Of a stretch of DNA of 17,204 nt, positions 1 to 3,400 are shown piece by piece. The DNA lies in assembly GCA_031255115.1 (NCBI GenBank), contig JAIRTD010000097.1, positions 1 through 17,204 on the forward strand, given 5' to 3'. This stretch comes from Spirochaetaceae bacterium. GTDB taxonomy: Bacteria; Spirochaetota; Spirochaetia; Treponematales; Breznakiellaceae. Each line of letters begins with the position of its first letter. Within the stretch, counting starts at the first letter, position 1. The notes beneath the pieces are model-generated. The model had not been told where the DNA came from and searched no databases. It was given only the letters and a program-made list of their open reading frames with translations. The position numbers and the translations under genes are program-made.

Positions 1-12
1 AGAATAAATCAG
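1..12. repeat. Right-end fragment of a further copy of the two-hairpin repeat
   Basis: The first twelve bases (AGAATAAATCAG) are identical to bases 181-192, which form the right end of repeat copy 1. This suggests that another copy of the element ends here and that its body lies to the left of the window. Twelve bases is short, so this is a suggestion. Bases 13-58 hold no gene; a weak 7-bp inverted repeat (28-34 with 49-55) is the only structure seen there. Confidence 0.4.
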
Positions 13-58
13 TGCTACTTTATTATCGCAAATGCGTAATGAAATGAACATTTGCAAG

Positions 59-200
59 GGGAACCGCTGATTTGAGTCAATTATACTCCATAGATTTGAG
101 TTTGTCAGGTGTGGAATTAGTTAATTCCTTACCTGACAAACACTTATAATCGGAATTCTCTGACAATTTCAAATTGTCAGAGAATAAATCAGCGGTTCCC
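59..200. repeat. MITE-like repeat copy 1: 105-bp core (82-186) inside 15-bp terminal inverted repeats
   Basis: The core at 82-186 matches 1891-1995 at 103 of 105 positions. It has two hairpins. Hairpin A (101-140) pairs TTTGTCAGGT with ACCTGACAAA and, after a two-base mismatch, GGAATTA with TAATTCC. Hairpin B (155-185) has perfect 15-bp arms around a single C. The word TTGTCAG or its complement CTGACAA occurs four times, once in each arm. In this copy only, the core is bracketed by perfect inverted repeats GGGAACCGCTGATTT (59-73) and AAATCAGCGGTTCCC (186-200). No open reading frame inside encodes a transposase, so if it is mobile it is non-autonomous. It ends 5 bp from the stop codon of the neighbouring secreted-protein gene. 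No T-tract follows the hairpins, so a terminator role is not evident. Confidence 0.85.
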
Positions 201-205
201 TAACA

Positions 206-874
206 CTACTTCAATCCATATAAATGAGCAATGCGGTATAAGCCTTTTATTTCTTCCAATTTGTCATACTCAGTTATAGTTATAATAATGGGATCTGATC
301 CATCATCTTCAATAATAAACGCCATACCATTGATATGATCAATGGTACTCCCGTCATCCGGCAATGTAAAATCAATACTCGCAAGATAATAAAATTGGCT
401 GTTACCATCCATCCTGATAATTTCTTCTATTTGTCCTGAATAATAATACATATATCTACTTCTAAAGTGTTCTGCCTCACAACCTTGTATATCAAAATAT
501 CCGGTATTGACATAATTATATTCATGGCCGCTAAATTCACTCGGCGGCTCTTGTGCGGCTAAAGGCAATAAAGCATCATACCTAATTATAAACTTGTGTT
601 TAAACGAAACCCTCATCAAATAATCCGGGGTCGAACTCCTGTCGGAAAGCACCAAAAAAATATGAGCGCCGTCGTACATCAGCCGAATCAATCTGTCATG
701 ATCTCCATATACGGTAATATAATATGCCTTATTGTTAAAATTCCATTTCTTAATTCCAGGGTTGCTGAATAATATGCTCTCTAAAATATCATCGCGGGTT
801 CTATCCGTTTGCGAAAAACCAAAAGACGGGTTTTCCAAAAGTATAACGAGCGATAGCAGCAATAACTTTTTCAC
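206..874 (-). CDS. Orphan secreted protein of unknown function (222 aa)
   Basis: I do not recognise the family. The GTG start at 874 was chosen because GGAGGAAG lies a few bases upstream and because the protein then begins with a classic signal peptide: two lysines, a Leu/Ile/Val-rich core (residues 4-13) and a likely signal peptidase I site around Ser-Phe-Gly at 17-19. An upstream ATG at 922 would bury this signal behind 16 charged residues. There is no lipobox cysteine. The mature part is rich in Tyr, Ile and Asp with a beta-strand-like pattern and no further membrane segment, so a periplasmic or exported protein is likely. The DNA is visibly more AT-rich than its neighbours, and the gene is flanked by a repeat (59-200) and a hairpin (936-972). 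This fits recent acquisition or a lineage-specific gene. It could equally be a fast-evolving cell-envelope protein. Confidence 0.7.
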   Translation of the reverse strand: MKKLLLLSLVILLENPSFGFSQTDRTRDDILESILFSNPGIKKWNFNNKAYYITVYGDHDRLIRLMYDGAHIFLVLSDRSSTPDYLMRVSFKHKFIIRYDALLPLAAQEPPSEFSGHEYNYVNTGYFDIQGCEAEHFRSRYMYYYSGQIEEIIRMDGNSQFYYLASIDFTLPDDGSTIDHINGMAFIIEDDGSDPIIITITEYDKLEEIKGLYRIAHLYGLK

Positions 875-924
875 TGTATCTTCCTCCAAATTCCCATGCA
901 TGGTTTTGAGTGCTTCAATCACAC

Positions 925-953
925 TTTATAGTATAGACTTGTTCGATAACCAA
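925..953 (-). promoter_or_regulatory. Possible promoter of the orphan secreted protein gene
   Basis: On the minus strand TTGGTT (953-948) and TATAAA (930-925) are separated by 17 bp, about 50 bp before the GTG start at 874. The -35 box is poor and lies in the loop and left arm of the 936-972 hairpin, so that hairpin could affect transcription. The call is weak. Confidence 0.35.
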
Positions 954-972
954 CCGGGTTATTGAACAAGTC
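936..972 (-). terminator. Strong hairpin just after the EamA transporter gene, without a T-tract
   Basis: GACTTGTTC (936-944) pairs with GAACAAGTC (964-972), and after one mismatch ATAACC (946-951) pairs with GGTTAT (957-962), leaving a 5-base loop. It begins 4 bp beyond the transporter stop codon on the minus strand. The position suits a terminator or an mRNA 3' end protector, but no run of T follows. It could also be another interspersed repeat. Confidence 0.45.
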
Positions 973-976
973 CAGC

Positions 977-1888
977 TTAGTTTGGTCCCTTGACAAGGGT
1001 CAGGTATACGCCTGATATAACCAGGGCCGCCCCCAGCCACTGGAAGGGCAATAGCCGTTCTCCCAGAACCAGGAAACCGGCGATTACCGTAATGACCGGA
1101 ACAAGGTTTACAAAAATCGTGGAAACGCCTATGCCCAGAACTTCGAGGGACCGGGCGTAGAACCAATACCCCAGGGCCGAACAGCAGACGGCGAGAAAGA
1201 GCAGATGGGCCAGTATCGAAAAATCGGGCCTAAGCCAGCGGGAACTTTCCATGAGGGCAAAGGGTATAAAGCCCAAAAAGCCGAAGAAGGACTGCCAAAA
1301 AACAATAAAGATACGGGAGTGATTTTCAAAGAGCGGCCTGGTGCAAAAACAATAGGCCACCCAGCTCAGGGCCGCGCCAAGCATATACACATAACCGGCA
1401 ACGCTGCCAGAGACCGAAAAGGAAAGGCTTGCCACAAGCCAGACCCCCGCTACCGAGACCGCGGTTCCCAGAATGCGCGTAACGGAGATTCCTGCGCGCG
1501 ATGAACCTGTTTTTGAACCAGAACCGGACCGCCTCATTTTAGCGGCCCCCCATTCGGCAAACATGCTGATAACGGGAATCGCAGAGATGATAATAGAAGC
1601 TTCTGAAGCGGTAACCAGGGACACACCGGTATTTTCGCAAAAAAAGTACAGTGTTACCCCGGTAAGTCCCGCGCCGGCAAGCAGGGGCAGGTCCCGGCGG
1701 CTGAGCCGCTCTCCCGCCGCAAAGCTTCGCTTAAAGAAAAAAAGAACCGCCAGCGCTATGGCAAAACGCAGCGCTCCCAAGGTCATGGGCGGAAAGACCG
1801 CCACCGTAACCTTTATGGAAACAAACGAAAAGCCCCAAAACAAAACACAGAGAATAATGGCAATCAAGGCGCTGCGCCGCTCGGTCAT
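977..1888 (-). CDS. EamA/DMT-superfamily membrane transporter (303 aa)
   Basis: This is a ten-helix permease of the drug/metabolite transporter superfamily, made of two EamA repeats in the inner membrane. The first repeat starts with a hydrophobic helix containing CVLFWGFSF (about residues 13-21) and continues through the GALRFAIALAVLFF segment. The second begins at about residue 165 with GYVYMLGAALSWVAYCF and contains the RSLEVLGIGVSTIFVNLVP segment typical of EamA repeats. The length matches the family's usual 290-310 residues. The ATG at 1888 was chosen because TATGGAG stands 6 bp upstream. An in-frame start at 1981 would only add translated repeat sequence, and one at 1900 has no good ribosome site. 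The substrate cannot be told from sequence; relatives export amino acids, nucleosides or other metabolites. The gene is divergent from larA and its leader is the 105-bp repeat. Confidence 0.9.
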   Translation of the reverse strand: MTERRSALIAIILCVLFWGFSFVSIKVTVAVFPPMTLGALRFAIALAVLFFFKRSFAAGERLSRRDLPLLAGAGLTGVTLYFFCENTGVSLVTASEASIIISAIPVISMFAEWGAAKMRRSGSGSKTGSSRAGISVTRILGTAVSVAGVWLVASLSFSVSGSVAGYVYMLGAALSWVAYCFCTRPLFENHSRIFIVFWQSFFGFLGFIPFALMESSRWLRPDFSILAHLLFLAVCCSALGYWFYARSLEVLGIGVSTIFVNLVPVITVIAGFLVLGERLLPFQWLGAALVISGVYLTLVKGPN

Positions 1889-1890
1889 GG

Positions 1891-1995
1891 TATACTCCAT
1901 AGATTTGAGTTTGTCAGGTGTGGAATTAGTTAATTCCTTACCTGACAAACAGTTAAAATCGGAATTCTCTGACAATTTCAAATTGTCAGAGAATA
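1891..1995. repeat. Two-hairpin 105-bp repeat, copy 2, forming the eamA leader
   Basis: This copy differs from 82-186 at only two bases. Both differences fall in the linker between hairpin A (1910-1949) and hairpin B (1964-1994), so both stems are intact. It lacks the terminal inverted repeats seen in copy 1. On the minus strand it runs from the predicted transcription start of the transporter gene to 3 bp before the ATG, and its end carries the GGAG used as ribosome site. It probably inserted upstream of the gene, or is a conserved leader cassette. Confidence 0.85.
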
Positions 1996-2001
1996 GAACC
2001 C

Positions 2002-2029
2002 AGTATAGTCAGAAACCACAACAAAACAA
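2002..2029 (-). promoter_or_regulatory. Predicted promoter of the EamA transporter gene
   Basis: On the minus strand TTGTTT (2029-2024) and TATACT (2007-2002) are 16 bp apart. The predicted start of transcription is near 1995, which coincides with the edge of repeat copy 2. The mRNA leader would then be about 107 nt and made almost entirely of the repeat. Confidence 0.55.
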
Positions 2030-2072
2030 ACCCACGGGCAGCGCCCTGCGACTGCCAGAAACACGGCGGCGC

Positions 2073-2099
2073 TTGCCGGAAAAGGCGTTTTGGTATAGA
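2073..2099 (+). promoter_or_regulatory. Possible larA promoter
   Basis: TTGCCG (2073-2078) and TATAGA (2094-2099) are spaced 15 bp apart, which is short. Transcription would begin around 2106, about 5 nt before the larA ATG at 2111. There is no room for a Shine-Dalgarno sequence in that leader. A second AT-rich hexamer, TATATA, lies at 2101-2106. Confidence 0.4.
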
Positions 2100-2110
2100 A
2101 TATATAGAAG

Positions 2111-3400
2111 ATGAAGATACAAATACCTTATTTGCAGAAAAGTTTTTCTCTCGAATTCCCTGATAAAAACCTTTTGGCCGTGGTTGAACCAAATGAATTC
2201 GAGCGAAAGGGAACCAGCGAATCCATACTAAAAGGAGCGCTTTCCGCGCCCTATGGACCTGAACGCAGGGAGGGGCAGAGCCTAAAGGACTTTCTCTCCG
2301 GGGGAAAAAAGCTCCTCATCATCATCAATGACGCTACGCGCCCCACGCCCACCGCGGCCATGCTGGGAGCGCTTGTTCCGGAGCTTGACGCTTCGCCCAT
2401 AAAGAACCAAGACATCACCCTCATCATCGCCACCGGCGCCCACCGGACCCCCACCGAAGCTGAGTACCAGCAGATACTCGGCCCCTGGCACGGGCGTTTT
2501 CGGGAACGCTGCGTCTACCACAACGCGCGCGACAACAGCGTCATGGTCGATCTGGGGACAACCCGGAACGGAACCCCCATACTGCTTAACCGGCTGCTTT
2601 TTGAAGCCGACCGCATTATCGCCACCGGAAGCGTGGAGCCCCACTACTTTGCCGGTTTTACCGGCGGCCGCAAGGCCTTTCTCCCCGGCATTGCCGCGTA
2701 CCGGACCATAGAGGCAAACCACAAACAGGCCCTCTCGCCCCGCTCCCGCTCCCTTGCCCTCGAAGGTAATCCGGTCCACGAAGATATGATGGACGCCCTG
2801 CCCCTGATTAAAGCGCCGGTCTTTTCGTTTATGACGGTACTGGACAAGGAACAGGGCATTGCCGACGCGGCCTGCGGCGATCTTATGGCCTCGTTCTACG
2901 CGGCGGTTGATACGGCGCGGAAGATCTTCTGCGTTCCCGTGGCGTCCAAAGCGGACATTGTCGTATCAGTGGCAAAATTCCCCATGGACATAGACCTCTA
3001 CCAGTCCCAAAAGGCAATAGACAACGGCGCCCTTGCCCTCAAAGACGGCGGCTTTCTCATCCTGGTATCATCGTGCAGGGACGGCATAGGCGACGAAGCC
3101 TACGCAAAACTCCTTGCCCAGGCATCGAGCCCGGCCGACGCCATTGAGCAAATACGCGTGCTTTACAAACTGGGTTACCACAAGGCCGCAAAAATGGCCG
3201 AAGTCTCAGGCCGGGCAACCATTAAAGCAATCACCGAGCTTCCACCGGAAAGGCTCGCGTCAATGTTTATAGAAAGCGCCCCAAGCCCCCAAAAAGCCCT
3301 TGACGACGCCCTTGCCGAACTTAAAAAAAGAGGCGTTGCCGAACCCGCGATACTCGTACTGCCCGACGGCTGCGTTACGATACCTGATCCCCGGCAGTAA
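2111..3400 (+). CDS. larA: LarA-family nickel-pincer racemase (lactate racemase-like, 429 aa)
   Basis: LarA enzymes interconvert D- and L-2-hydroxy acids by hydride transfer to a nickel-pincer cofactor covalently bound to a lysine. The residues expected from Lactobacillus plantarum LarA (His108, His174, Lys184, His200) are present at almost the same numbering: His111 in ATGAHRTPTEAE, His178 in GSVEPHYFAGF, Lys188 in TGGRKAFLPG, and His204 in EANHK. Asp74 and Arg77 in NDATRP complete the substrate site. The length is normal (L. plantarum about 424). The start begins MKIQIPY, as in the family, although no clear ribosome site precedes it. The cofactor genes larB, larC and larE are not in the window and would have to lie elsewhere. 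LarA homologues also act on malate or sugar acids, so lactate is only the default substrate. The gene converges on the hemerythrin gene with a 26-bp overlap. Confidence 0.88.
   Translation: MKIQIPYLQKSFSLEFPDKNLLAVVEPNEFERKGTSESILKGALSAPYGPERREGQSLKDFLSGGKKLLIIINDATRPTPTAAMLGALVPELDASPIKNQDITLIIATGAHRTPTEAEYQQILGPWHGRFRERCVYHNARDNSVMVDLGTTRNGTPILLNRLLFEADRIIATGSVEPHYFAGFTGGRKAFLPGIAAYRTIEANHKQALSPRSRSLALEGNPVHEDMMDALPLIKAPVFSFMTVLDKEQGIADAACGDLMASFYAAVDTARKIFCVPVASKADIVVSVAKFPMDIDLYQSQKAIDNGALALKDGGFLILVSSCRDGIGDEAYAKLLAQASSPADAIEQIRVLYKLGYHKAAKMAEVSGRATIKAITELPPERLASMFIESAPSPQKALDDALAELKKRGVAEPAILVLPDGCVTIPDPRQ

Follow-up and report, generated by a model that had tools for sequence, protein, structure and literature searches.

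REP/REPIN sequences, which go with RAYT, are palindromes that occur in many copies, and Y1 elements (REP/RAYT, IS200/IS605) are not known to possess terminal inverted repeats (TIRs) or a target duplication. The Correia elements (CE) of Neisseria have a TA duplication. In PMC3049150, CE are described as short, bounded by inverted repeats and affecting neighbouring genes. The same paper presents RUP of Streptococcus pneumoniae as an AT-rich, folded element of 107 bp with TIRs and target duplication, which is thought to be mobilised in trans, has a TIR like that of IS630-Spn1 and is over-represented between convergent genes (PMC3049150). MITEAba12 of Acinetobacter is, according to PMC6382973, a 111-114-bp MITE with target duplications, in which signals directed outward from one end can affect neighbours and whose end provides the first codons in some genes.

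Here, we describe a repeat that is present twice in the window, that is, the whole stretch of 17,204 nt analysed (contig JAIRTD010000097.1 of a Spirochaetaceae bacterium, whose genome is referred to as G000). The data are best explained by a MITE family of termite-gut treponemes, to which we assign a probability of roughly 80%. In its described features, RUP is like the repeat, namely in size, AT-richness, folding, TIRs, target duplication and presumed trans mobility; the repeat differs in that no partner IS was found among the loci examined here and in showing an end-specific excess at start codons instead of the excess between convergent genes. With CE it shares shortness and bounding inverted repeats. 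However, CE provide promoters and RNase III sites, whereas the present element may contribute a Shine-Dalgarno sequence, and a scan of copy 2 revealed no promoter. MITEAba12 and the repeat are both short MITEs with target duplications and with outward signals from one end, putative ones in the present case, but MITEAba12 acts via a promoter and start-codon fusion, and sequence and host differ. REP/REPIN are likewise palindromic and present in many copies, but no link to Y1 was found here, and the element has TIRs and a target duplication, the latter at the majority of testable sites. In the literature searched, neither this repeat nor any MITE supplying a Shine-Dalgarno sequence is described.

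The two window copies (82-186 and 1891-1995, both on the forward strand; delimited by repeat search and scored copies) are 98% identical and constitute the sole direct-repeat family of at least 25 nt in the window. Repeat search and alignment confirmed what a first-pass annotation of this DNA had claimed, namely two copies of 105 bp with two differences that both fall in the linker; these are at element positions 62 and 66 of the element, inside a 13-base linker. The element measures 101 bp plus TA on either side, the element proper of copy 1 extending from 84 to 184, and contigs C126 and C270 of G000 carry copies that do not differ from copy 1 at all. The element has no ORF of its own, so that the earlier statement that no protein is encoded holds, though one of the reverse frames runs through both copies without a stop; of the six frames, five contain stops in copy 1 and four in copy 2. 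An outward promoter on the reverse strand was also considered, since the linker is TATAAT-like in some copies; it was rejected upon the negative scan of copy 2, and by eye most copies of G000 read TTAAAAT at this place.

Hairpin A (100-141 in copy 1, 1909-1950 in copy 2) and hairpin B (155-185 and 1964-1994, respectively), neither assigned to a strand, were delimited by covariation and folding, for copy 2 by the fold of the reverse strand, which folds strongly. The DNA fold of copy 1 reaches -28.4 kcal/mol (z -9.6), and 0 of 200 shuffles were as good. In this fold, hairpin A comprises 12 plus 6 pairs separated by one 1x1 mismatch; its stem is thus imperfect, as annotated previously, but has 18 pairs instead of the 17 bp given then. 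Similarly, the 15-nt arms of hairpin B around one C stand as annotated, while the fold pairs 14 positions of these supposedly perfect arms. TTGTCAG or CTGACAA can indeed be read in all four hairpin arms. Counted inward, TTGTCAG occupies positions 21-27 from each element end; the shared word therefore belongs to the terminal inverted repeat, which accounts for its presence in all four arms.

The two subterminal hairpins are kept by compensatory changes. The underlying alignment of 39 rows, 38 of them distinct, combined 37 of 55 non-redundant full copies with both copies of the window, leaving aside 7 near-identical copies from G000 and 11 copies with larger indels. Here, 94.6% of hairpin cells were paired, as compared to 33-49% when the pairing was slid. 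Double-changed hairpin cells numbered 72 versus 24.5 in shuffles, and 11 pairs carried double changes versus 7.6 in shuffles, a value reached by 9 of 500 shuffles. These counts fit DNA and RNA structure alike and do not discriminate between them.

G000 harbours at least 40 copies, on both strands and on many contigs (40 of 64 candidates were scored), in an assembly that is a 1.9-Mb draft of 323 contigs and 74% complete. The 40 scored copies include 32 complete ones at 95-100% identity, five complete older ones at 82-91% and three partial ones, two of which are truncated at the edge of a contig. Further copies and remnants came to light when hairpins and ends were searched for as patterns. Scoring at most six candidates per genome, matches were obtained in 29 of 145 family genomes, the own genome included and other genera among them. 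The search of the genome and its relatives that the first-pass annotation had proposed thus turned out positive. Its counter-scenario, in which only two copies exist through a simple local duplication of one sequence, would fit the distance of 1.8 kb between the window copies, but is refuted by the copy number in G000 and by the copies in other genera, and we dismiss it. The exact left-end pattern, searched in one genome per species (84,980 species), matched 24 loci, 22 of which are labelled Treponema, Spirochaetaceae or Brucepastera, in agreement with the proposal of a family of this lineage. The remaining two belong to a Desulfovibrio MAG with a full copy and an Ignavibacteriae MAG that has just the left-end stretch; viral contigs gave no exact left-end match. 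The full copy in the Desulfovibrio-labelled MAG (L126:6703-6807) reflects either cross-phylum transfer or a mis-binned contig.

Shortened forms were observed as well. Four 33-bp solo forms (L238, L240, L241, L198) seem to have arisen by deletion between the TTGTCAGG of the first arm of hairpin A and the TTGTCAGG of the last arm of hairpin B. Left-end-only matches in relatives look like remnants or deletion forms; inspection of the 330 bases downstream of them revealed no recognisable autonomous element. In genome G124 (L078:1441-1577, L266:587-714), a small palindrome (about TTCAGCTTTTTTTATAAAAAAGCTGAA) interrupts hairpin B.

The element is bounded by imperfect TIRs of ~28 nt. In copy 1, the left TIR including TA (TATACTCCATAGATTTGAGTTTGTCAGG, 82-109, forward strand) agrees at 19 of 28 positions, in register 0, with the reverse complement of the right one (159-186, reverse strand), a degree of identity attained by 3 of 200,000 shuffles. 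Over the outer 45 nt, 23 positions agree in register as compared to 6-15 at 24 other shifts.

At most testable sites, although not at all of them, insertion is accompanied by a 2-nt target duplication; at copy 1, the presumed duplication corresponds to the TA at 82-83 and 185-186, as judged from empty relatives of the site. For this test, empty versions of each flank pair were sought in the collected loci, allowing up to four mismatches per side. Among 85 loose matches, a gap of 2 nt was found in 30, followed by 12 with 8 nt and 10 with 0 nt (other gaps, 3 to 12). The 30 matches with a 2-nt gap trace to 10 insertions, of which window copy 1 and those on C322, C320, C291 and C185 are best supported. 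In empty relatives of the copy 1 site, the flanks are separated by 2 nt (TT) in L119, L295 and L298 and by a single nucleotide in L091. For C322, the empty site reads CGGT-TA-GTTTCG in L015 and has TG in L099 and L205, and the empty ortholog of C185 in G035 carries TA. Together with one C291 comparison, the L015 and G035 sites are the only ones at which the dinucleotide is TA; elsewhere it is TT, CA, GA or others, because the compared sites are related but not identical. The lengths at C81 and C127 are closer to no duplication, and the length at C194 fits neither case clearly. The 2-nt difference between empty and filled sites points to a duplication of TA.

Insertion sites were also compared within the genus, searching 19 of the 40 copies of G000 in same-genus genomes. 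Alignable orthologs without the element exist for C127, C185, C194, C81 and C65, and the element is also absent, less cleanly, at C257 and C221; for the rest of the 19 sites, there was no match spanning the site or alignment was impossible there. None of the 40 copies lies within a called gene, as judged by a crude ORF caller, and five are overlapped by 12-18 nt by a gene end. The left flank is rich in T and the right one in A. The element also inserts into the loops of other palindromes, including that of an older copy of itself on C291.

Several other repeats are present in the vicinity of copies. A second palindromic family, GGGAA-CGCTGATT...AATCAGCG-TTCCC, has its arms at 59-72 (GGGAACCGCTGATT) and 187-200 (AATCAGCGGTTCCC) of the window (forward strand); copy 1, which is unrelated to this outer palindrome, entered its loop. 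Judging from sequence and relatives, this family recurs in L119, L295, L298, L091 and L086 and in several places adjoins GCAAATGCG..ATGAAATGA..CATTTGC-like DNA. A third family with the palindrome GACTTGTTCGATAACCAACCGGGTTATTGAACAAGTC is found at 936-972, with relatives in L096, L167, L290, L294 and L304, and the element on C320 is inserted in one such relative. In L005 (G000:C291:3758-3934), an element resides within the hairpin-B loop of an older, diverged self copy. Another interspersed repeat, which is G+C-rich (GGGCGCATCCGGCGC...), lies to the right of the element in G000:C168 and recurs in many of the loci retrieved from same-genus genomes, so that it has numerous matches in the genus. 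A gene for a 238-aa protein without Pfam match (206-922, reverse strand) ends 19 bp from copy 1.

Hence, the element is short, dispersed in many copies, lacks an ORF of its own and has TIRs and a target-site duplication. The combination of TIRs and 2-nt target duplication argues for a MITE that is mobilised by a transposase encoded elsewhere. A TA duplication, as applies to the IS630/Tc1 type, is seen with C81 and C127 as exceptions, the empty site reading TA in some comparisons only. A DDE-type transposase would act in trans, bind the TTGTCAG-containing ends and insert the element at TA. Where the first-pass annotation had suggested a REP/MITE-like family, the MITE part is borne out by dispersed copies, TIRs, 2-nt duplication and lack of an ORF, but the REP part, which implies Y1/RAYT, is not. 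Derivation from REP/REPIN or IS200/IS605 (Y1, HUH), with the hairpins as single-strand recognition sites for TnpA/RAYT, could account for two subterminal hairpins, a T-rich left flank, intergenic location and insertion into hairpin loops, and Y1 matches do occur in 12 of 20 carriers. However, the eight others, including G054, G086, G112, G015, G005 and G055, have none (these are drafts), and G000 contains a single PF01797 (Y1) fragment at a contig end. Moreover, 31 Y1 loci (30 of 34 carrier matches and the one in G000) had no left end or hairpin B nearby, yielding one blast match with an E value of 0.94, and inverted ends in register together with a 2-nt duplication are not known from Y1 elements. 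We therefore regard this origin as largely refuted and very unlikely. The matching ends that the first-pass annotation had proposed to look for at a Y1 or IS transposase gene were also absent from the other loci examined. PF13358 (DDE_3) is present in 6 of 15 carriers (14 loci without matching ends) and PF01609 (DDE_Tnp_1) in 9 of 15, again without matching ends; G000 has neither. Altogether, 69 Y1, DDE_3 and DDE_Tnp_1 loci contained no autonomous element with matching ends, in drafts that lose repeated IS; the best end-like score, 17/21, equals the shuffled maximum, and one weak profile match was obtained (L297, model positions 66-96, E 0.0038). The partner transposase may be unassembled, extinct or a member of a family other than Y1, DDE_3 and DDE_Tnp_1.

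A cis-acting RNA leader such as a riboswitch or attenuator, duplicated along with genes and not mobile, would explain why the reverse strand folds strongly, covaries and ends in a Shine-Dalgarno-like motif next to some starts. However, most copies are located away from any start, copies at unrelated genes share 95-100% identity, and orthologous sites are empty. In addition, an Rfam covariance-model search of window positions 1-2400 gave no match inside the element, the sole match being outside and below the cut-off. An RNA leader is accordingly even harder to credit than a Y1 origin. The core sites of integron attC are RYYYAAC/GTTRRRY and are found in cassette arrays. By eye, the outer ends of hairpin A read GTTTGTC/GACAAAC, and the copies are single and dispersed; this candidate was rejected. 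Integron gain is placed after the termite species split off in PMC3607928.

The MITE family is ordinary in kind, but has an end-specific tie to translation starts. On its reverse strand, the left end reads GGAGTATA. In copy 2, GGAG at 1895-1898 (reverse strand) precedes the ATG at 1888-1886 by 6 nt; it is Shine-Dalgarno-like, and sequence and statistics point to a possible role of this kind. This ATG, separated by 2 nt from the left end of the element, is the likely start codon of an EamA-family transporter gene (977-1888, reverse strand; PF00892, E 2.2e-41), although the frame stays open upstream through copy 2 (ORF listed to 1981). To relate copies to starts, we used a gene caller that is blind to Shine-Dalgarno signals and to the element, and random intergenic sites from the same loci. 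The left end lay within 0-8 nt of a start in 8 of 80 complete copies as compared to 1.8% of random sites (p = 1e-4), and the right end in 0 of 80; like the counts that follow, these statistics are post hoc, several and modest, and the copies share ancestry. This caller omits C81, C127 and C185, for which orthologs support the start. As a cruder proxy, CAT was present 0-8 nt from 29 of 113 left ends, 28 of them at 0-6 nt (p = 1.3e-4), whereas ATG after the right end was not enriched (8 of 810 positions, p = 0.89; left versus right, p = 0.004). The CAT excess is seen in relatives alone (p = 5.7e-5) but lacks significance in G000 alone (p = 0.21), and some flanking CATs are not starts (C126, C166). 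CTCC is kept in 23 of the 29 CAT-adjacent copies versus 49 of 84 others (p = 0.047), and 11 of 23 left-end-only remnants are CAT-adjacent versus 17 of 86 (p = 0.013; 4 of the 113, cut by contig ends, omitted). At C81, C127 and C185, a Shine-Dalgarno-like stretch lies beyond the far side of the element and the start codon 0-6 nt from the left end, an arrangement that L138 and L070 resemble, without ortholog. It does not reflect a general rule, given that the right flank carries a Shine-Dalgarno motif in 11 of 79 cases (p = 0.22); such a motif is thus unsupported as insertion target. In the G099 ortholog of the EamA gene beside copy 2 (L191, G099:C95), a left-end-like stretch (12 of 16 bases) abuts the same start codon with nothing else recognisable; it is perhaps an older, decayed insertion.

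These observations raise the possibility, at less than even odds, that the left end serves as Shine-Dalgarno sequence for the adjoining gene. The element would likewise be a MITE if the excess at start codons reflected target choice only, that is, insertion at T-rich and CATG-containing sites next to TA with a functionless GGAG, and to this explanation we give even odds. It is favoured by the left flank, which is also T-rich in copies away from starts (TTT 3-fold), and by the left-end motif, which varies between GGAG and GGTG. Moreover, CATG accounts for the whole excess. At a distance of 0-8 nt from the 113 left ends, it occurred 16 times (5.4-fold, p = 1e-7), as compared to 13 occurrences of CAT without a following G (1.25-fold, p = 0.25). 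On the same side, ATG was enriched to an equal degree (27, p = 1.2e-4). Because CATG reads the same on both strands, the excess would be expected from a target preference and likewise from start codons that follow a C. Since this control places all of the CAT excess in the palindromic CATG, it lowers the odds of a Shine-Dalgarno role and raises those of a target preference. On the other hand, the more frequent retention of CTCC and of the left end at starts, the position of the CAT excess at 0-6 nt, which is the usable Shine-Dalgarno distance, and the lack of such an excess at the right end speak against target choice alone.

If the left end does act as a Shine-Dalgarno sequence, an element landing 0-6 nt upstream of a gene, with its left end toward it, would present GGAGTATA outward and thereby supply a new Shine-Dalgarno sequence. 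Start-adjacent insertions might thus be tolerated owing to the element's own Shine-Dalgarno sequence, and the left end could be retained as the gene's ribosome site once the remaining element decays. One TIR would then double as transposase site and functional Shine-Dalgarno sequence, with GGAG at 4-10 nt from the ATG, and the element would itself make good the damage of inserting between the ribosome site of a gene and the start codon; read from sequence, we consider this conceivable but rather doubtful. In some genes, an N-terminal extension through the open reverse frame is possible.

Taken together, this insertion family is common to many genera of termite-gut treponemes, which form a large group and are for the most part uncultured, and is usable for genome comparison. 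Should the left end indeed act as a Shine-Dalgarno sequence, mobile DNA could occupy the few bases at which a gene is most sensitive and yet leave it active, and there would be a route from transposon ends to host translation signals.
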